Shown here piece by piece: positions 5,079 to 47,484 of a stretch of 64,000 bases of DNA. The notes beneath the pieces are model-generated. The model made no database searches. It saw only the letters and a program-made list of their open reading frames with translations, and was not told the DNA's origin. Every line of letters begins with the position of its first letter. The stretch's first letter is position 1. This stretch comes from Spiractinospora alimapuensis. Lineage in GTDB: Bacteria > Actinomycetota > Actinomycetes > Streptosporangiales > Streptosporangiaceae. The position numbers were made by a program, and so were the translations under genes. The stretch is from NCBI RefSeq assembly GCF_018437505.1, contig NZ_CP072467.1, positions 4,054,010-4,118,009 of the forward strand. Direction: 5' to 3'.

Positions 5079-5747
5079 TCAGCCGTCGCGTTGTGCCCTG
5101 ATGCCAGCGATCACCAGATCGAGCACCTGGTCGAAGTACGTGTTCTCGACCGCCAGGGCGTCGGGCTCCGAGACCGCCGTGGTCCGGGCGTTGTCGTGGG
5201 TCTCCGGGGCGGTCGCGCGGGTGGTGCGCATGGCGACCGTGGTGATCGCGGCGCCGACGAGTTGGTGGGACATCGCCCGGATGGCGACGGCCTGTTGCTG
5301 TTCGGTCCCGCCGTGGTCGTGCAGCGCGGTGATGATCCGCCGTGACAGGGCGACGGCGTTGGGTCCGATCAGCGGGCGCGACCCCGCGAACTCCGCGGCC
5401 CAGGCGTGGGCCGTCAACGCGGCGTAGAACCGGTGCGCGGTCCGCTTGACGGCGACGTCCCAGGTGACGTCCGGCCCGGGTAGGTCCGCGGCGGCGCCGG
5501 CGAGGATCTCGTCCACGGCGAGGTCGACGAGGTCCTCGCGGCGTTCCACGTGCCAGTAGAGGCTCGTGGCGTGCACGCCGAGCTCGGCGGCGACCTTGCG
5601 CATGGTGAGCGCCCGGGTGCCCTCCCGGTCCAGGAGCGCGATCGTCGCGGTGACGATGCGTTCGCGGCTGAGCGCGGGTTGGGACCGGCGGCCACGCGGA
5701 GGGCGCGCGAAGACGCTGTCGATCTGCGGGGCGTGGGGATCGTCCAT
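5079..5747 (-). CDS. TetR-family transcriptional repressor, divergent from a CPBP protease
   Basis: The protein has 222 residues. The N-terminal helix-turn-helix is clear (LSRERIVTATIALLDREG, then LTMRKVAAELGVHATSLYWHVERREDLVDLAVDEI). The C-terminal part looks like the TetR_C family that covers tetracycline-repressor relatives. The start at 5747 (ATG) is preferred over a GTG three codons upstream. The gene is read away from the membrane protease gene, and the 60-base gap between them holds a perfect 19-base palindrome, so it probably represses itself and the protease. The inducer is unknown. Confidence 0.88.
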   Translation of the reverse strand: MDDPHAPQIDSVFARPPRGRRSQPALSRERIVTATIALLDREGTRALTMRKVAAELGVHATSLYWHVERREDLVDLAVDEILAGAAADLPGPDVTWDVAVKRTAHRFYAALTAHAWAAEFAGSRPLIGPNAVALSRRIITALHDHGGTEQQQAVAIRAMSHQLVGAAITTVAMRTTRATAPETHDNARTTAVSEPDALAVENTYFDQVLDLVIAGIRAQRDG

Positions 5748-38124: not shown

Positions 38125-38240
38125 GTGGGGTGCTGTCGCAGCACCAGACAGGTCTAACGATAGCAAAGCCGGAGTAGTGGCGGTGCACGTTTTTGGGTTG
38201 GGGAGCATCATGGGGAGGACGCGAGGCTAAGGAGTTGGGT

Positions 38241-39563
38241 ATGGACGGCGGTCGGCGGATGGATGTGACGGGGGAAGAGGAGGTTGTGGGGCTCTGCAGT
38301 GAGCTCATCGCGATCGATACCTCGAACTTTGGGGACCACTCGGGGCCGGGGGAGCGGGTCGCCGCGGAGTATGTGGCGGAGAAGCTGGCCGAGGTGGGGG
38401 TGGAGCCGGAGATCTACGAGTCGCACCCGAAGCGGTCCAACGTCGTCGTGCGGATCCCGGGGGCCGATCCGAGTCGGGCGCCGTTGCTCGTGCACGGGCA
38501 TCTGGACGTGGTGCCGGCCGCGGCGGAGGACTGGAGCCGGCACCCGTTCGCGGGGGAGGTTGCGGACGGGTGCGTGTGGGGTCGCGGCGCGATCGACATG
38601 AAGAACATGGACGCGATGATGCTCGCCACGTTGCGGGACCGGCTGCGTTCCGGGCGTAAGCCCGCACGGGATCTCGTGGTGGCGTTCGTCGCGGACGAGG
38701 AGGCGGGCGGCACGTGGGGGGCGAAGTACCTCGTGCGTGAGCACCCGGAGTTGTTCGCCGACTGCACCGAGGCGATCAGTGAGGTGGGCGGGTTCAGTCT
38801 GGACGTCGGGCAGGACCGGCGGCTGTACCTCATCGAGACCGCGGAGAAGGGCATCGCGTGGATGCGTCTCACCGCGCGGGGCACGGCCGGCCACGGGTCC
38901 ATGACCAACGACGACAACGCGGTGACCGAACTCGCCGACGCGGTCGCGCGCCTGGGCCGGCACGAGTTCCCGCTGCGACTCACCAAGACGGTGCGGACCC
39001 TGCTGGAGGAGGTGTGCGAGGCGTTCGGGATCCCGTTCGACGAGAACGACGTCGAGGGCACCGTCGCCCGGATGGGGCCGGTCGCCCGAATGGTCGGCGC
39101 CACCCTGCGCAACTCGGTGAACCCGACCGGGCTGGAAGCGGGGTACAAGGTCAACGTCATCCCCGGGTCCGCGTCGGCCCTGGTGGACGGCCGGTTCCTG
39201 CCAGGGGAAGAGGAGTCGTTCTTCGCGGAGGTCGACCGGCTGCTGGGCCCCAACGTCACGCGTGAGTTCATCCACCACCTCCCCGCGGTGGAGACGGACT
39301 TCTCGGGTGGCTTGGTGAACGCCATGGGTGAGTCCCTGCGCGCGGAGGACCCCGGAGCCACCACCGTTCCCTACTGCCTGTCCGGCGGGACGGACGCCAA
39401 GCACTTCAGCGACCTGGATATCCGCAACTTCGGCTTCGTACCCCTTCGTCTGCCCCCCGAGATGGACTTCGCGGGCATGTTCCACGGAGTCGACGAGCGT
39501 GTCCCGGTGGACGGGCTCACGTTCGGTGTCCGTGTCCTTGACCGATTCTTTGACGCCTGCTGA
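38241..39563 (+). CDS. M20/M25/M40-family metallopeptidase
   Basis: The protein has 440 residues. Metal ligands are in LLVHGHLDVVPA and in CVWGRGAIDMKNMDAMML, the catalytic Glu pair in VVAFVADEEAGGTWGAKYL, and the dimerisation domain starts near TARGTAGHGSMTND. A late His (GGTDAKHFSDL) completes the site. The family cleaves dipeptides, N-acyl amino acids or similar amides in the cytoplasm. The start has AAGGAG at 6 bases. It is next to tRNA-Leu but independent of it. Confidence 0.9.
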   Translation: MDGGRRMDVTGEEEVVGLCSELIAIDTSNFGDHSGPGERVAAEYVAEKLAEVGVEPEIYESHPKRSNVVVRIPGADPSRAPLLVHGHLDVVPAAAEDWSRHPFAGEVADGCVWGRGAIDMKNMDAMMLATLRDRLRSGRKPARDLVVAFVADEEAGGTWGAKYLVREHPELFADCTEAISEVGGFSLDVGQDRRLYLIETAEKGIAWMRLTARGTAGHGSMTNDDNAVTELADAVARLGRHEFPLRLTKTVRTLLEEVCEAFGIPFDENDVEGTVARMGPVARMVGATLRNSVNPTGLEAGYKVNVIPGSASALVDGRFLPGEEESFFAEVDRLLGPNVTREFIHHLPAVETDFSGGLVNAMGESLRAEDPGATTVPYCLSGGTDAKHFSDLDIRNFGFVPLRLPPEMDFAGMFHGVDERVPVDGLTFGVRVLDRFFDAC

Positions 39564-39934
39564 GCCGAACTCGCCGGACGGCGTCGGTCGAGGGCCCGGT
39601 CGCGGTGGTGTCACCGACCCGCCCTCAGCGGGCGCTCACGTTCGGTGACGACCGGTGGGTGGCCTCCGCGGCCCAGGAAAGGCTCAACCGGGGCACAGGT
39701 GGCATGTCGGAAGATGCCCGTCGTGTACCCCGGTTCTGCTTTGTGAGGCGCTTGACCAGGTATTGCACGGATTGGGGGTGGTCCTGGTGATCCCCTGGTC
39801 CCCGCCTCGCCACATTTTTTGGGTGGGCGCGTCGAAACTTGCACACGGCGACGACCGGACTGCTAGTGTCACTTCTCGTAGCCACCCGAATGCGATCAGT
39901 GGCTGTTATCGCGACGCGGAGGAGTGACCGGACG
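39564..39934. other. Intergenic region upstream of the secreted acidic protein
   Basis: About 370 bases without a convincing gene. A GGAGGAG ribosome-site-like tract lies just before the next ATG, somewhat far from it (about 10-12 bases). Confidence 0.4.
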
Positions 39935-41350
39935 ATGGCGACGGACACGGACGAGGTGCGAGTCAGCACCCGTAGCCGTGTGCGTATGTTGTCCCGGCGC
40001 GTTCTCGTCGTCGTGGGGTTCGCGGCCGCCGGATGGGCCATCGGCGCTGGTGCGGCTCAGGCCGCGGCGCCGGACGCTCTCGGTCAGGTCACCGGGCCCG
40101 TCACCGACATCCTCGGTGTCTCCGGTTCCAGTGGGAACGCCGAGGAGTCCGCCGAGGACACGGGGACCACAGAGACCACGGGGACCACAGAGTCCACGCA
40201 GTCCACTGACGTCGTGGGAGACGCGGTACAGGACACCGAGTCCGTGGCGGAATCCGCGACGGACCAGGCGCCCAGCGTTGACTCTGGCTCCAGTGACTCT
40301 GGCTCTGGCTCTGACGCCACCGAGACCCAGTCCGACGCCCCGGCGCCGGACGCGGGCGGCGAGGACGCCACGACCACACCGGAACCGGTGACGGACGTGG
40401 CGACATCGGCGGCGTCCACGGAGTCCGACGCGGACACCAACGACACCAACGACACCAACGACGCCCAGACCCACGCGGGCACCGAGGCCGAGACCGAATC
40501 CGACCCCGGACCGCCGGTGGTCGGGGAGGTCACGGACACGGCGTCGCGCACACTCGGCGTCCGGGACGTCCCCGCGGAGACCGTGCGGGGGGTGGACGGG
40601 CTCCTCACCACAGTGGTGACACCCACGCCCACCCGAGCGCAGGAATCCGACAGCGCCACCGAGGCGTCGTCCGACGACGGTTCGGGATCGGTGACATCAG
40701 CCCTCCTGCGGACAGCGGGCGGAGCCGTCACCGGGGTCACCGACACGTTGCGCGGTACGGCGGACACGCTGGAGAGCAGCGAGGTCCTCCGACCCGTCAC
40801 GGAGATCGGGTCCGGACTGTCCGAGGTGGTGCGGGACACCACCGGCGCCGACACGAGCCACATCCTGGGTGGTGTCGACACGAGCCTGCGTGAGGCCATC
40901 GACATCCCGGCCGGTCTGGTGGAGGCGACGTACTCCGCCCGCCCGAACGCGGACCAGGTTCCGACGCCACACGTGGTGTCGTCGCAGGACTCCGTCTCGC
41001 GGTCGGCCGACCGCGAGGGGCAGCGCAAGGAGAGCCAGAAGAGCGACGCGGCGGTCACCGACCCCTCGTTCGCCAACGCTCCCACCCCGTGGACCCACGG
41101 TCAGCAGCAGGTCGGTTCGGCGCCCGTGGGCTCCGGCTCCGACGGCTCGGACCGTGGGGAACGAAACGACGCGGCGCAGGGCAGCGGCTCCGCTGTGACC
41201 TCCGCCGGAAGCAGCCCGGTCGCCGCCGCCGGCTTCCTGGTGAACCGGGTGGACCTCGCGGCCGACTCCGGCCTCCGCCTGCCGTCCACGAACGGCGAAG
41301 TCCCGGTCGTCGCCGACGCCGCGGACGACCCTTCCTTCTCGCCCGACTAA
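39935..41350 (+). CDS. Large secreted acidic, Ser/Thr/Asp-rich protein next to the chaplins
   Basis: The protein has 471 residues. An N-terminal signal (MLSRRVLVVVGFAAAGWAIGAGAAQAAA) is followed by about 130 residues of low complexity made of T, S, D, E and A, including TTETTGTTEST and NDTNDTNDT repeats. After that come loosely repeated helical stretches (VTGVTDTLRGTADTLESSEV, LSEVVRDTTGADTSHILGG). There is no clear C-terminal membrane anchor. Such composition suits an exported, disordered cell-wall or aerial-hypha surface protein. Its position directly before six chaplins supports a surface role (inference). Confidence 0.72.
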   Translation: MATDTDEVRVSTRSRVRMLSRRVLVVVGFAAAGWAIGAGAAQAAAPDALGQVTGPVTDILGVSGSSGNAEESAEDTGTTETTGTTESTQSTDVVGDAVQDTESVAESATDQAPSVDSGSSDSGSGSDATETQSDAPAPDAGGEDATTTPEPVTDVATSAASTESDADTNDTNDTNDAQTHAGTEAETESDPGPPVVGEVTDTASRTLGVRDVPAETVRGVDGLLTTVVTPTPTRAQESDSATEASSDDGSGSVTSALLRTAGGAVTGVTDTLRGTADTLESSEVLRPVTEIGSGLSEVVRDTTGADTSHILGGVDTSLREAIDIPAGLVEATYSARPNADQVPTPHVVSSQDSVSRSADREGQRKESQKSDAAVTDPSFANAPTPWTHGQQQVGSAPVGSGSDGSDRGERNDAAQGSGSAVTSAGSSPVAAAGFLVNRVDLAADSGLRLPSTNGEVPVVADAADDPSFSPD

Positions 41351-41746
41351 CTCGCCTCCTTCGGCTTCCCACAGCGGACACCTGTCCTCTGTCGGAGCGC
41401 GCCAGCGTGGAGGCGACGTCACCGCCTTCCTCGATGACCAGCGACGGACCGAGAAACACACGCAACGCACGTGTGAAGGGCGAACACCATGGCATCCAGC
41501 AACGCTGCCCGCGGGGCGGCTGATGTGAGCTCCGCGGCCAGCCGCGTCGCGGGGTTCACCTCAGCCCGCCCGGCAGGGCCGGAGCTGAGTAAGCGCGACA
41601 TCGCGCACAGCAGACACAGGGACACGCGTCCCGCGTTCCACGCACAGACCGCGGCTGGATCGGAACGCGGCACGTGGGGGCCTCGGAGTCGACACGAGGC
41701 TCGCCCGTCCTGTCGCACACAGGAACTCTCGAAGGGATCAAACACC
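41351..41746. other. Intergenic region upstream of the first chaplin
   Basis: About 400 bases. No gene is supported; the open frame running into the first chaplin has no signal peptide or family feature upstream of MRKW. It probably holds the promoter and leader of the chaplin array. Confidence 0.4.
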
Positions 41747-42025
41747 ATGCGCAAGTGGATGAAGGCGACCTCGGTGACCGCTCTTGTTGCGGCGGGCCTG
41801 CTGGCGTTCGGCGCGGGCACCGCGCACGCCAACGGTGGGCACCACGGCCACGACTACGAGAACGACAGCATCAACGCGGTCACCTCGGGCAACGGCAGCA
41901 TCCTGGGCGGCAACCAGATCATCGCCGACGTGGACGTGCCGATCAACGCCTGCGGCATCGCCGTTGGTGCCCTGCTCGGCGTCGCCAACGCCGAGTGCGA
42001 GGAGTCCGGCGCCATCGCCGACTAG
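41747..42025 (+). CDS. Short chaplin 1
   Basis: The protein has 92 residues. A signal peptide (MRKWMKATSVTALVAAGLLAFGAGTAHA) is followed by a NGGHHGHDYE linker and one chaplin domain with GNGSILGGNQIIADVDVPI and two cysteines (NACGIAVG and NAECEE) that form the conserved disulfide. There is no sorting signal, so it is a short chaplin. Chaplins self-assemble into amyloid fibrils that coat aerial hyphae and spores. It is closest to chaplins 3 and 6 of this array. Confidence 0.93.
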   Translation: MRKWMKATSVTALVAAGLLAFGAGTAHANGGHHGHDYENDSINAVTSGNGSILGGNQIIADVDVPINACGIAVGALLGVANAECEESGAIAD

Positions 42026-42148
42026 TCGCACCGGTCGACCTTTCGCAGTACTCCAGAGCATGACCCGCGGGTATCGCCCCGGCGGTACCCGCGGCACCAG
42101 AACACGCAGTGCAAGCGAACACCACAGTCTGACTTCGAAGGAATCACG

Positions 42149-42445
42149 ATGCGCAAGTGGCTCAAGGCGACCTCGGTGGCGGCATTCGCGGTGGCGGGAC
42201 TCCTGCTGCTCGGCGGAGGGACCGCGCACGCTGACTGCTCCGGTGACGACCACGGCCACAAGCCCAGCCACAGCTACGAGGACGACAGCGTCAACGCCGT
42301 TTCCTCGGGCGACGGCAGCATCGCCGGCGGCAACCAGATCATCGGTGACGTGGACGTTCCCGTGAACGTCTGCGGCGTCGCGGTCGGAGCCGTCGGGGGT
42401 ATCGGCAACGCCGTGTGTGACGGGTCCGGCGCCGTCGCCGACTAG
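42149..42445 (+). CDS. Short chaplin 2 (most divergent copy)
   Basis: The protein has 98 residues. The signal MRKWLKATSVAAFAVAGLLLLGGGTAHA is followed by a longer linker with an extra cysteine (DCSGDDHGHKPSHS). The chaplin domain has GDGSIAGGNQIIGDVDVPVNVCGVAVGAVGG, ending NAVCDGSGAVAD. The third cysteine outside the domain is not found in the neighbouring copies. A repeat shared with other chaplin spacers follows the gene. Confidence 0.92.
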   Translation: MRKWLKATSVAAFAVAGLLLLGGGTAHADCSGDDHGHKPSHSYEDDSVNAVSSGDGSIAGGNQIIGDVDVPVNVCGVAVGAVGGIGNAVCDGSGAVAD

Positions 42446-42461
42446 GCCCGACACGGCGCCC

Positions 42462-42476
42462 GCGTCCCACCGGCGT
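42462..42476 (+). repeat. Chaplin-spacer repeat, copy 1 (CGCGTCCCACCGGCG)
   Basis: The 15-base sequence recurs after chaplins 4 and 5 at a similar distance from their stop codons. It lies about 15-20 bases after the stop codon of chaplin 2. It may be residue of tandem duplication or a shared 3' element. Confidence 0.6.
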
Positions 42477-42534
42477 GGGGTGCCACCTGACCAGCAGTGA
42501 ACCAAAGACTCTCAGGCGAAAAGGACTTCACATC

Positions 42535-42816
42535 ATGCGCAAGTGGATGAAGGCGACCTCCGTGGCGGCTCTCGTGGCGGCCGGCATGCTGACCTTCGGT
42601 GCGGGCACCGCGCACGCCAACGGTGGGCACCACCACCACGGCGAGTACGACAACGACAGCATCAACGCCGTCACCTCGGGCAACGGCAGCATCGCGGGTG
42701 GCAACCAGGTCATCGTCGACGCGGACGTGCCGATCAACGCCTGCGGCATCGCCGTCGGCGCGCTGCTCGGTGTCGCCAACGCCGAGTGCGAAGAGTCCGG
42801 CGCGATCGCCGACTAG
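42535..42816 (+). CDS. Short chaplin 3
   Basis: The protein has 93 residues. Signal MRKWMKATSVAALVAAGMLTFGAGTAHA, then a His-rich linker (NGGHHHHGEYDND) and the chaplin domain with GNGSIAGGNQVIVDADVPI and the NACGIAVG / NAECEE cysteines. It is very similar to chaplin 6, differing mainly in the signal peptide and the VIVDA segment. Confidence 0.93.
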   Translation: MRKWMKATSVAALVAAGMLTFGAGTAHANGGHHHHGEYDNDSINAVTSGNGSIAGGNQVIVDADVPINACGIAVGALLGVANAECEESGAIAD

Positions 42817-42985
42817 TTCTCCGCCGGTCCTCTGCCGGTGACGGGCTGGTCGCGGCGGCCCGGCCGTCCCCGCAGGTCCAAGCGGGACCCCAGCGGCACC
42901 TGGTCAGTGACTGACCAGTCAGCAGTACCTCGGTAGTACCTCGTCAAAAGCACGAACAAAGCACATCTGGGAAAGAGGAACTCTC

Positions 42986-43252
42986 ATGCGCAAGTGGATC
43001 AAGGCGACCTCCGTGACCGCTCTCATGGCCGCTGGCCTGATCGCGTTCGGCGCCGGCACGGCCAACGCGCACAGCTACGACTACGAGAACGACAGCATCA
43101 ACGCGGTCACCTCGGGCAACGGCAGCATCCTCGGCGGCAACCAGATCATCGCCGACGTGGACGTGCCCGTGAACGTCTGCGGCATCGCCGTCGGCGCGGT
43201 CGCCGGCATCGCCAACGCCGAGTGCGACGAGTCCGGCGCCATCGCCGACTAG
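42986..43252 (+). CDS. Short chaplin 4
   Basis: The protein has 88 residues. Signal MRKWIKATSVTALMAAGLIAFGAGTANA, short linker HSYDYEND, and chaplin domain with IIADVDVPVNVCGIAVG and NAECDE cysteines. The first ~165 bases are almost identical to chaplin 5, so the two arose by recent duplication. A GAAAGAGGAA purine tract precedes the ATG. Confidence 0.93.
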   Translation: MRKWIKATSVTALMAAGLIAFGAGTANAHSYDYENDSINAVTSGNGSILGGNQIIADVDVPVNVCGIAVGAVAGIANAECDESGAIAD

Positions 43253-43274
43253 TTCACGCGTGGCGGGCACACCG

Positions 43275-43289
43275 CGTCCCACCGGCGCG
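43275..43289 (+). repeat. Chaplin-spacer repeat, copy 2 (CGCGTCCCACCGGCG)
   Basis: This is the same 15-base element as after chaplins 2 and 5, about 20 bases beyond the chaplin 4 stop codon. Confidence 0.6.
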
Positions 43290-43356
43290 GATGGGCCGAC
43301 AGCAGTCCCTTAGGCAACACCAGACAGAACAGCATTCCTGGATGAAGGAGCAGCAC

Positions 43357-43623
43357 ATGCGCAAGTGGATCAAGGCGACCTCCGTGACCGCTCTGATGGC
43401 CGCTGGCCTGATCGCGTTCGGCGCCGGCACGGCCAACGCGCACAGCTACGACTACGAGAACGACAGCATCAACGCGGTCACCTCGGGCAACGGCAGCATC
43501 CTCGGCGGCAACCAGATCATCGCCGAGCTGGACGTCCCCGTGAACCTGTGCGGGATCGCCGTGGGCGCCGTTGGCGGCGTGGCGAACGCCGACTGCGAGG
43601 AGTCCGGCGCCTACGCCGACTAG
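43357..43623 (+). CDS. Short chaplin 5
   Basis: The protein has 88 residues and is nearly identical to chaplin 4 through the signal peptide and first half of the domain. It then diverges (AELDVPVNLCGIAVGAVGGVANADCEESGAYAD). Both cysteines are kept. The divergence being confined to the 3' third suggests gene conversion or a recombination joint. The ATG has GAAGGAG upstream. Confidence 0.93.
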   Translation: MRKWIKATSVTALMAAGLIAFGAGTANAHSYDYENDSINAVTSGNGSILGGNQIIAELDVPVNLCGIAVGAVGGVANADCEESGAYAD

Positions 43624-43644
43624 TCACCGCTGACGTCGCGGACC

Positions 43645-43659
43645 GCGTCCCACCGGCGT
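43645..43659 (+). repeat. Chaplin-spacer repeat, copy 3 (CGCGTCCCACCGGCG)
   Basis: Third copy of the 15-base element, about 20 bases beyond the chaplin 5 stop codon. It continues into GTGG, as does copy 1. Confidence 0.6.
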
Positions 43660-43744
43660 GGTGCCCCACTCAGCCAGGCGGTTCAGCAGTACCAGCAGTA
43701 CAGCACACATCACGTAAGCACGATCCATCACGAAGGAGCAGCAC

Positions 43745-44026
43745 ATGCGTAAGTGGATGAAGGCGACCTCGGTGACCGCTCTCGTCGCGGCGGGCCTGCT
43801 GGCGTTCGGCGCCGGGACCGCGCACGCCAACGGTGGGCACCACCACCACGGCGAGTACGACAACGACAGCATCAACGCCGCGACCTCCGGTAACGGCAGC
43901 ATCCTCGGCGGCAACCAGATCATCGCCGACGTGGACGTGCCGATCAACGCCTGCGGCATCGCCGTCGGCGCGCTGCTCGGTGTCGCCAACGCCGAGTGCG
44001 AAGAGTCCGGCGCCATCGCCGACTAG
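43745..44026 (+). CDS. Short chaplin 6
   Basis: The protein has 93 residues. It combines the signal peptide of chaplin 1 with the His-rich linker of chaplin 3 (NGGHHHHGEYDND) and ends in the same NACGIAVGALLGVANAECEESGAIAD as chaplins 1 and 3. A single V-to-A change (INAATSGNG) distinguishes the repeat start. The ATG has GAAGGAG upstream. It closes the array. Confidence 0.93.
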   Translation: MRKWMKATSVTALVAAGLLAFGAGTAHANGGHHHHGEYDNDSINAATSGNGSILGGNQIIADVDVPINACGIAVGALLGVANAECEESGAIAD

Positions 44027-44349: not shown

Positions 44350-44535
44350 TCACATCACGGCGTGGCGTCGGATGATTTTCCGTCGCAGGACCACACGTCG
44401 ACTCCCGTCCGGGTACAGCCGTACCCTCGCGAGTTCCCAACGTCCGTACTCCGCGTGCTCGGTCAACGCCTTGCGGGCGATCCCGCGGGAAGTTCCACGC
44501 GGGAATCGGAGTTCCTGGTACTCATACTCAAGCAT
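44350..44535 (-). CDS. DUF5703-family small protein
   Basis: The 61-residue protein reads MLEYEYQELRFPRGTSRGIARKALTEHAEYGRWEL and then ARVRLYPDGSRRVVLRRKIIRR. This matches DUF5703, a small protein conserved across actinobacteria. Its function is unknown; the basic C-terminus may bind nucleic acid. It is divergent from topA. The very long open frame continuing upstream on this strand is an artefact of the antisense of topA. Confidence 0.85.
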   Translation of the reverse strand: MLEYEYQELRFPRGTSRGIARKALTEHAEYGRWELARVRLYPDGSRRVVLRRKIIRRHAVM

Positions 44536-44730: not shown

Positions 44731-47484
44731 GTGCCATCCCAGAAGGGCAGCTCGAGCGACACGGCGGGGGCCGGGAACCGGCTCGTCATCGTCGAGTCGC
44801 CGGCCAAGGCCAAGACCATCGCCGGCTACCTCGGACGTGGGTACGTCGTTGAGTCGAGCATCGGACACATCCGCGACCTCCCCGAGCGGGCGGAGGAGAT
44901 CCCCGCCAAGTACAAGGGGGAGTCGTGGGCGCGACTCGGCGTCAACATCGACGCCGACTTCGAGCCGTTGTGGGTCGTGAACTCCGACAAGAAGGCGCAC
45001 GTCAAGAAGCTCAAGGCTCTGCTGGCCGACGCGGACGAGCTGTACCTCGCCACGGATGAGGACCGCGAGGGCGAGGCGATCGCCTGGCACCTGCAGCAGG
45101 AGCTGAAGCCCAAGGTGCCCGTGCGCCGCATGGTCTTCAACGAGATCACCCGTGAGGCGATCCAGCGCGCCTCGGAGAACACCCGTGACCTCAACCTGCG
45201 TCTGGTCGACGCCCAGGAGGCCCGCCGGATTCTGGACCGCCTCTACGGCTACGAGGTTTCCCCGGTGCTGTGGAAGAAGGTCCGGCCGAAGTTGTCGGCG
45301 GGCCGTGTCCAGTCCGTGGCCACGCGACTCGTGGTCGAGCGGGAGCGCGAGCGGGTCGCCTTCACGGCCGCCGACTACTGGGACCTCAAGGGTGACTTCC
45401 TCGCGCCGGACGTCGCCGAGGGCGACCCGGCGACATTCCAGGCGCTGTTGTCGTCGGTGGACGGTCTGCGCGTCGCTCAGGGCAGGGACTTCACCGCCCA
45501 GGGGACGCTGCGTGCGGAGAAGGGTGTGCTGCATCTCGACGAGGCCGCGGCCACCGGGCTCGCCGAGCGGTTGCGCGCGGCCCGGTTCACCGTTGGCAGC
45601 GTCGAGCGCAAGCCGTACAAGCGTGGCCCCTACGCCCCCTTCCGCACCACCACGTTGCAGCAGGAGGCCTCGCGCAAGCTCGGTCTGTCGGCGAAGCAGA
45701 CCATGCAGGTCGCACAGCGCCTTTACGAGAACGGTTTCATCACCTACATGCGTACCGACAGCACCACGCTGTCGGAGAACGCGGTGGCGGCCGCGCGGGC
45801 GCAGGCGGCGCAGCTCTACGGCGACTCCTACGTGCCGCAGAAGCCGCGCGTCTACTCCAACAAGGTGAAGAACGCCCAGGAGGCGCACGAGGCGATCCGG
45901 CCGTCCGGGGACACCTTTCGCACCCCGGCGCACACGGGACTGTCCGGAGCGGAGTTCCGCCTCTACGAACTCATCTGGAAGCGCACCGTCGCCTCCCAGA
46001 TGAAGGACGCCGTCGGCGAGTCGGTCAAGGTGTCGGTGGTCGGCAACTCCAGTGCCGACGAGCGGGCGGAGTTCACCGCCACCGGCAAGGTCATCACCTT
46101 CCCCGGCTTCCTGAAGGCCTATGTCGAGGGCGCGGACGACCCGGACGCGGAGCTCGACGACCGGGAACGTCGTCTGCCCCCGCTCGCGGAGGAGCAGCAC
46201 GTCACCGCGCAGAGCGTGGAGCCGGACGGCCACAGCACGCGTCCTCCCGCCCGATACACAGAGGCGAGCCTGGTCAAGGAGCTGGAGGACCGCGAGATCG
46301 GGCGCCCCTCGACCTACGCGTCCATCATCGGCACGATCTTGGACCGCGGCTACGTCTTCAAGAAGGGGACGGCGCTGGTGCCGTCGTTCCTTGCCTTCGC
46401 CGTGATCCGGCTGATGGAGCAGCACTTCGGGAACCTCGTCGACTACGACTTCACCGCCCGAATGGAGGACGTACTCGACGAGATCGCGCGCGGTGAGACC
46501 GAACGCGTCCCGTGGCTGCGCCGCTTCTACAGCGGGAGCGAGGACGAGCCCGGACTGCACAAGATGGTGGACGACCACCTGGCCGAGATCGACGCGCGCG
46601 AAGTCAGCTCCTTCCCGATTTCCGACAGTGACATCGTCTTGAGGGTCGGGCGCTATGGTCCGTATCTTGAGCGGGACGGAAAACGGGTCACCGTTCCCGA
46701 CGACCTCGCGCCCGACGAGCTCACGCCCGAGCGGGCCGAGGAGCTGTTCGCACAGCCCAGTGAGGATCGAGAGCTGGGCACCGACCCCGACACCGGCCGT
46801 GTCGTCGTCGCCAAGAACGGCCGGTTCGGGCCGTACGTCACCGAGGTGTTGGAGGAGCAGGAGACCGAGACCAAGACCAAGAGCAGCCGCTCCAAGGCGA
46901 AGGCCGCCGCCAAGCCACGTACGGCGTCGTTGCTGAAGTCCATGTCCCTGGACACGGTGACCCTGGATGACGCGCTGCGTTTGCTGAGTCTGCCCCGCGT
47001 TGTTGGTGACCTCGACGGTGAGGAGGTCACGGCCCAGAACGGCAGGTTCGGGCCGTACCTGAAGAAGGGCACGGACAGTCGCTCCTTGGAGAACGAGGAG
47101 CAGATATTCACCGTCACGTTGGACAAGGCCAAGGAGCTCTTCGCCCAACCCAAGCAACGCGGCCGCCGCGCCGCCGCCCCGCCCCTGCGCGAGCTGGGGG
47201 AGGACATGGACACGGGCAAACCGATGGTGATCAAGGACGGGCGTTTCGGGCCCTACGTCACCGACGGCGAGACCAACGCCTCGCTCCGCAAGGGCGACGA
47301 GGTGGAGTCCATCACGGTGCAGCGCGCCTCGGAGCTGTTGGCCGATCGACGGGCCGCGGCTCCCGCCAAAAAGAAGTCGTCGGCGCCGAGCAAGAAGACC
47401 ACGAAGAAGGCGCCGCCGAAGAAACCCGCCCCCAAGAAGTCCACACGTCGGACGAACAACACGGACTCGACGAACACCGAGTGA
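44731..47484 (+). CDS. topA: DNA topoisomerase I (type IA)
   Basis: The 917-residue enzyme relaxes negative supercoils by transient cleavage of one strand. The TOPRIM domain has RLVIVESPAKAKTI at 17-30 and the acidic DEDREGEAIAWH at 109-120. The catalytic tyrosine is Tyr339 in FITYMRTDST. The C-terminal region carries four topo-repeat motifs (GRYGPYLE, GRFGPYVT, GRFGPYLK, GRFGPYVT) in place of the zinc fingers of the E. coli enzyme. It ends in a Lys/Pro-rich tail (KKTTKKAPPKKPAPKK), typical of actinobacterial TopA and important for processivity. The GTG start has AGGGGAA upstream. Confidence 0.97.
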   Translation: MPSQKGSSSDTAGAGNRLVIVESPAKAKTIAGYLGRGYVVESSIGHIRDLPERAEEIPAKYKGESWARLGVNIDADFEPLWVVNSDKKAHVKKLKALLADADELYLATDEDREGEAIAWHLQQELKPKVPVRRMVFNEITREAIQRASENTRDLNLRLVDAQEARRILDRLYGYEVSPVLWKKVRPKLSAGRVQSVATRLVVERERERVAFTAADYWDLKGDFLAPDVAEGDPATFQALLSSVDGLRVAQGRDFTAQGTLRAEKGVLHLDEAAATGLAERLRAARFTVGSVERKPYKRGPYAPFRTTTLQQEASRKLGLSAKQTMQVAQRLYENGFITYMRTDSTTLSENAVAAARAQAAQLYGDSYVPQKPRVYSNKVKNAQEAHEAIRPSGDTFRTPAHTGLSGAEFRLYELIWKRTVASQMKDAVGESVKVSVVGNSSADERAEFTATGKVITFPGFLKAYVEGADDPDAELDDRERRLPPLAEEQHVTAQSVEPDGHSTRPPARYTEASLVKELEDREIGRPSTYASIIGTILDRGYVFKKGTALVPSFLAFAVIRLMEQHFGNLVDYDFTARMEDVLDEIARGETERVPWLRRFYSGSEDEPGLHKMVDDHLAEIDAREVSSFPISDSDIVLRVGRYGPYLERDGKRVTVPDDLAPDELTPERAEELFAQPSEDRELGTDPDTGRVVVAKNGRFGPYVTEVLEEQETETKTKSSRSKAKAAAKPRTASLLKSMSLDTVTLDDALRLLSLPRVVGDLDGEEVTAQNGRFGPYLKKGTDSRSLENEEQIFTVTLDKAKELFAQPKQRGRRAAAPPLRELGEDMDTGKPMVIKDGRFGPYVTDGETNASLRKGDEVESITVQRASELLADRRAAAPAKKKSSAPSKKTTKKAPPKKPAPKKSTRRTNNTDSTNTE

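Follow-up and report, generated by a model that had tools for sequence, protein, structure and literature searches.

The question raised by the topA locus of Spiractinospora alimapuensis is why a row of short chaplin genes stands at a site where relatives carry a single long chaplin gene with several domains. The stretch of DNA that we analyzed, here called the window, comprises 64,000 nucleotides (nt) of contig NZ_CP072467.1 (positions 4,054,010 to 4,118,009, forward strand). At window positions 41747-44026 it contains six short chaplin-like genes of 88-98 amino acids (aa), arranged head-to-tail and all on the + strand. An earlier note made from the sequence had described six tandem chaplins on one strand, and both the list of open reading frames (ORFs) and a repeat search of the window, which returns the array as one six-copy family, bear this out. 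The interpretation given there, recombination among tandem copies, is incomplete; the main point is that relatives carry a multi-domain chaplin at the place of the array. We consider it probable that a polydomain chaplin gene was replaced here by tandem single-domain genes that exchange sequence with one another. The locus represents a new architecture of a known family, beside a possibly new regulatory element. To our knowledge, chaplins outside Streptomyces have been little described, and our literature search found no publication on the topA-linked multi-domain chaplin, on a chaplin array or on the upstream element. The array would illustrate one way of rebuilding a coat gene in bacteria, and one multi-domain gene versus six single-domain genes at one locus amounts to a natural experiment on coat assembly with linked or free domains.

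The topA locus in relatives

A scan of named genomes gave 80 topA loci, 35 from Streptomycetaceae and 45 from other families. At least 3 kb of upstream sequence is available for 41 of the 45 non-Streptomycetaceae loci (four have under 3 kb), and 39 of these 41 informative loci contain a chaplin ORF upstream of topA. The ORF nearest topA has at least two chaplin domains in 38 of the 39 cases, and ten additional loci, which were picked for having chaplin matches, all agree (10/10). The multi-domain form occupies the site in Nocardiopsis, Nonomuraea, Planotetraspora, Actinomadura and others, and no chaplin was found upstream of topA at the 35 Streptomycetaceae loci, 34 of which have at least 3 kb visible. 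The window and its relatives share their flanks: a gene for what we take to be an M20-type peptidase on the left (38193-39563, + strand; tblastn homology, 33 of 80 topA loci), topA for DNA topoisomerase I on the right (44731-47484, + strand; TIGR01051, 798 bits), and tmk. At this site the window holds only the six short chaplins, beside a 503-aa ORF.

All six array proteins have a hydrophobic, signal-like N-terminus with an MRKW start, as read from the sequences. An MR[KTQ]W start is present in 43 of the 49 chaplin ORFs nearest to topA versus none of the 15 anchored ORFs farther upstream, and by reading none of seven short chaplins has MRxW; these counts were made by ORF position and by reading short sequences, since the class labels had themselves used a W near the start. 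The array therefore has the site, the neighbours, the MRKW/MRTW signal and the domain type of the topA-linked multi-domain soluble chaplin, and it shares the upstream element of the Nocardiopsidaceae form. The multi-domain chaplin differs in that a single ORF encodes all its domains, mostly 2-8 as detected, together with a long C-terminal tail; in Nocardiopsidaceae most of its first domains are without Cys. Two Cys are kept in the first domain in just 2 of 19 Nocardiopsidaceae (L026, L028, L135, L137, L139 and others show the loss), and the anchored chaplin beside the multi-domain gene in this family retains its Cys.

A sortase-anchored long chaplin is also found at this locus in most Nocardiopsidaceae examined, usually 5' of the multi-domain gene. 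In Nocardiopsis, all seven named loci with enough sequence carry such a second, farther-upstream ORF (one or two domains, LTG-type sorting tail). The earlier note saw no long, sortase-anchored chaplin here, which holds for the array; however, relatives carry one at this very locus, and the genome (one 5.86-Mb contig) has one 0.74 Mb away, with three domains and an LPTTG-transmembrane-RRRR tail (C1 3356526-3356999, minus strand). The genome also contains one sortase-family gene and, 26 kb downstream of the array, a conventional short chaplin (C1 4123898-4124122). No other array was found among the matches listed from 341 family genomes, a list in which weak arrays could be missed, and a scan of genome contigs with the array alignment gave 67 pattern matches and no relative. 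The nearest thing to a small array outside this genome is a pair of adjoining short chaplin ORFs in another genus (L138:6478-7337).

Origin of the array

The six array genes have a single origin: they form one clade with support of 99/91 in a tree of N-terminal sequences (81 columns; 51 of 72 N-termini included). Beyond this genome, their best matches are for the most part N-terminal regions of multi-domain proteins, aligned across the whole query. In the topA tree the window splits off before the other 20 Nocardiopsidaceae rows diverge from one another (support 99 at the outer fork and 83 at the inner one), and loci with the multi-domain form lie on both sides of it. The multi-domain form is also that of the outgroup families, and parsimony therefore makes the array the derived state. 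The outer position of the window would also suit an ancestral array of single genes, which were later fused into the multi-domain gene in relatives; but Streptosporangiaceae and Thermomonosporaceae, outside the group, have the multi-domain form with MRTW at the site, so that this scenario needs independent fusions and is very improbable.

We propose that both long genes, the multi-domain and the anchored one, were lost from the site in this lineage, and that a unit consisting of the MRKW signal peptide and one domain, presumably taken from the 5' end of the long gene, was duplicated in tandem to give six genes behind the retained upstream element. Gene conversion would afterwards have moved sequence between the copies. 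The position, the signal peptide and the upstream element suggest descent from the multi-domain gene. Several observations weigh against this course of events. In the N-terminal tree the array lies not within the multi-domain clade but outside a group that unites the first domains of multi-domain and anchored chaplins (98/79); the tree alone therefore does not show descent from a multi-domain gene. Signal-peptide models favour the multi-domain class for only four of the six copies; for copy 3 the anchored model scores slightly higher, and for copy 2 the short model does. The six genes retain two Cys, which most Nocardiopsidaceae multi-domain first domains are without, and a search between 39561 and 44730 turned up no trace of the C-terminal part of the long gene. 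At two of the 41 informative loci the site is empty of chaplins, so the locus can disappear altogether. Finally, the curated cut-off of the chaplin family PF03777 ChpA-C (21 bits) is reached by only two of the six array proteins singly by hmmscan, and by four of six in the genome search.

The retained Cys pair is also a feature of short chaplins, and single short chaplin genes exist in relatives and in this genome, including the one 26 kb downstream. With the core domain, the short and multi-domain models score close to each other (76.9 versus 75.4 for copy 4). These points would fit ordinary tandem duplication, in which a free-standing short chaplin multiplied at a site that had lost its long chaplins independently. 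We think this unlikely, since short chaplins begin with (M)LKK-type or similar sequences, the short model gives far lower scores for the signal peptides of five of the six array copies, and the array lies directly 3' of the upstream element of the multi-domain gene.

Chaplin family membership and protein features

The six genes are separated by gaps of 89-169 nt, and each has a purine-rich stretch 5' of its ATG. Scored singly against ChpA-C, copy 2 (42149-42445, 98 aa), the most divergent copy with one additional Cys, and copy 4 (42986-43252, 88 aa) are above the cut-off with 22.7 and 22.3 bits, respectively. Copy 1 (41747-42025, 92 aa) falls under it with 18.9 bits, and copy 3 (42535-42816, 93 aa), copy 5 (43357-43623, 88 aa) and copy 6 (43745-44026, 93 aa) give 16.3, 20.3 and 19.9 bits. 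ChpA-C is the sole Pfam family near significance for these proteins, and NCBIfam gave nothing useful for them. When the array was aligned with its homologues, 40 of the 45 rows matched ChpA-C at E 0.01 or better (best 3.8e-10), so the chaplin kinship of the array is safe. The chaplin domain is reported to have three GN motifs spaced 12-13 residues apart (PMC13251363). The array departs from this pattern: in all six proteins CG is followed by I or V, and N is found there in 358 of 396 comparable motifs of relatives. Judged by sequence, the array is a divergent chaplin branch in which the N after the first CG was lost in all six copies. This lowers the case for a canonical chaplin domain, not the case for proteins that work like a chaplin.

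In each array protein the MRKW-type signal-like N-terminus is followed by a short variable His/Tyr/Asp stretch and then by a core with the consensus SG[ND]GSI..GGNQ..D.DVP[IV]N.CG[IV]AVGA. Two conserved Cys with 14 residues between them are present in all six, and by reading all six fit the short-chaplin layout of a signal peptide plus one domain with the sorting signal absent. The mature peptides have 60-70 residues (cleavage assumed after residue 28) and a net charge of -9 or -10; they are strongly acidic, with a moderately hydrophobic core. The earlier note also pointed to His-rich linkers that could bind metal. The His-rich stretch is present, but it stands at the mature N-terminus and not between domains, and it is copy-specific: NGGHHGH in copy 1, NGGHHHHG in copies 3 and 6, DDHGHKPSH in copy 2, and merely HSY at this place in copies 4 and 5. 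Such clusters are not special to the array, because 14 of the 80 chaplin ORFs collected have at least four His within eight residues. AlphaFold2 gave no usable fold (mean predicted local distance difference test score 44.9). A PDB sequence search returned only weak nanobody matches over the signal-peptide/linker stretch, which we rejected.

Exchange of sequence between copies

Copies 4 and 5 had been noted as alike at the 5' end and unlike in the 3' third, and the counts agree: one mismatch over the first 170 nt and 17 over the remaining 97. The near-identical tract of copy 5 (43357-43526, + strand; copy 4, 42986-43155) begins sharply at the ATG and breaks off within codon 57, and the flank just upstream of the ATG already differs. 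Copy 6 had been described as combining copies 1 and 3. By quarter, it is identical to copy 1 at 67/72, 53/57, 69/75 and 70/75 sites and to copy 3 at 60/72, 60/60, 64/75 and 74/75. The alternation is visible (runs p 0.005), but it is not significant after correction for 60 triplets.

Across the whole array the pairwise homoplasy index (PHI) test gave p values of 0.001, 0.0005 and 0.002 with three window sizes (36 informative sites). A permutation test on the longest shared run gave p 0.0001 for copies 4-5, 0.0008 for 3-6 and 0.0013 for 1-5, and these three of the 15 copy pairs pass Bonferroni correction. One of 60 triplets passes the max-descent test. The earlier claim of recombination between copies is upheld by the PHI and shared-run results as far as exchange is concerned. 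As to its mode, the note left open unequal crossing-over or gene conversion. For copies 4 and 5, conversion with two exchange points fits better than a recent duplication by unequal crossing-over, because the near-identical block has differing flanks on both sides. Gene conversion is supported as the simplest reading of the mosaic at the sequence level. Identity between the paralogues is clustered beyond chance and has sharp borders in this one genome; with near-identical, sharp-edged tracts between differing flanks, the array would be an ordinary example of conversion in a tandem gene family.

Uneven selection along the gene, with no exchange between copies, could in principle give a similar picture: signal peptide, linker and core differ in constraint, and the permutation tests presume even sites and had just 36 informative ones. 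Yet the near-identity of copies 4 and 5 ends abruptly at the ATG and within the core, and copies 3 and 6 are identical at 60/60 sites in one quarter with 60/72 and 64/75 in the adjoining quarters. We therefore give uneven selection only a slight chance, and prefer exchange between copies. The note had taken the exchange to be ongoing; within this one genome, however, the number of synonymous substitutions per synonymous site (dS) between copies ranges from 0.15 to 0.63, which indicates that most of the divergence is not recent, and the ratio of non-synonymous to synonymous rates (dN/dS) of 0.09-0.51 indicates that selection on the array is on average purifying. Among 50 ORFs of relatives with at least three chaplin domains (two of them overlap at a single locus), 18 contain exact internal repeats of 60 nt or more, and exchange between chaplin repeats thus looks general. 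One multi-domain gene (L139:6639-8303, minus strand) has a 333-nt exact repeat; its domains were duplicated or converted very recently.

A conserved upstream element

A putative regulatory element lies 5' of copy 1 at 41515-41589 (+ strand), with arms A (41515-41537), B (41548-41565) and C (41577-41589). It was found via words common to the upstream regions of relatives and the window. Arm B can pair with A, in relatives as a 17-pair stem, and the 3' part of B is also complementary to C; the B:A and B:C pairings form two mutually exclusive predicted hairpins, with a third hairpin, H3, between arms B and C. The element lies 5' of the MRxW gene in 25 relatives and has been kept by copy 1 of the array. 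Among the 26 sequences, A:B plus H3 pairing holds in 95.5% of cells with five pairs changed on both sides (0 of 500 shuffles as high), and B:C plus H3 pairing in 98.3% with four such pairs (4 of 500 shuffles); these shuffle figures overstate the case since the rows are related. Covarying base pairs are thus present in the element, and at one position B shows covariation with A and with C alike (T-A/A-T in 24 sequences and C-G/G-C in two). No Rfam family matched the element at its cut-off.

When the window is left out of the model, the element is recovered at 41518-41592 with 32.0 bits and on the opposite strand with 33.6 bits; matches on both strands are expected because the element is a near-palindrome. 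A 26.5-bit match at 5466-5583 of the window was rejected, as it lies inside an ORF that is presumably TetR-like. Scores near 30 bits alone therefore prove little, and the assignment at 41515-41589 is based on position and motif as well. The element was found at E 0.01 in 13 of 21 chosen family genomes. In the 12 genomes with strong matches (E 6.5e-10 or better), the best match is directly 5' of the multi-domain chaplin; examples in relatives are L026:4722-4848, L137:8310-8436 and L147:10264-10390 (minus strand). Of nine weaker matches whose surroundings were inspected, eight have a gene that ends in ...SPD on one side and an ORF with a secretion-signal start (MF.. in seven, ML.. in one) on the other; the ninth (G072) follows an anchored chaplin-type ORF and precedes a multi-domain one. 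Relatives L175, L176, L177, L178, L179, L180, L181 and L183 have a second copy of the element between the ...SPD gene and a secreted protein whose start is mostly MFxFAR...GFVALGAGI; neither this second copy nor the MFxFAR protein was found in the S. alimapuensis genome (MFxFAR best E 0.13). We suggest, tentatively and as no more than one possible reading, that the element belongs to a new Nocardiopsidaceae class of cis-regulatory RNA with two exclusive folds, which may switch coat production as a small regulon and may have survived the rebuilding of one polydomain gene into six genes. It may instead act as an operator or a terminator. A conserved switch-like element of this kind would offer a testable handle on the regulation of such coats.

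Proposed function

The six genes most likely encode small, secreted, single-domain chaplin-type proteins that would act as surface-active coat subunits on the cell surface. In Streptomyces coelicolor the short chaplins show surface activity and assemble into amyloid fibrils (PMC3079736). The array differs from the S. coelicolor short chaplins ChpD-H in having no GN after the first Cys in any of the six proteins (CGI/CGV), in its strongly acidic mature peptides, and in the arrangement of six genes in a row. Like the sortase-anchored ChpA-C type it has two-Cys chaplin domains, but its genes are without a sorting signal. The array proteins would be exported and processed and, by analogy with the S. 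coelicolor proteins, might assemble at the hyphal surface, possibly on the anchored three-domain chaplin as a base, with free single domains standing in for domains strung on one chain.

Neighbouring genes and intergenic DNA

The ORF on the left of the array (39839-41350, + strand) encodes an acidic secreted-type protein of 503 aa from its first start codon, the true start being uncertain, and ends in ...DDPSFSPD. Pfam had no match for it and NCBIfam nothing useful, and homologues of its C-terminal part occupy the corresponding position in several relatives. It belongs to an acidic secreted-type family beside chaplin loci with the conserved C-terminus ...DAADDPSFSPD, of which L143:5907-6911 is another member. 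Between the array and topA there is a small conserved ORF, MLEYEYQELRFPRGTSR..., at 44350-44535 on the minus strand, and the same ORF occurs in L143. A simple promoter/terminator scan gave nothing convincing within the array. Intergenic hairpins follow several array copies: the hairpin-forming repeat CCGCGTCCCACCGGCG is located after copies 2, 4 and 5 (42460-42486, 43272-43298 and 43643-43669), in intergenic DNA that is otherwise different.
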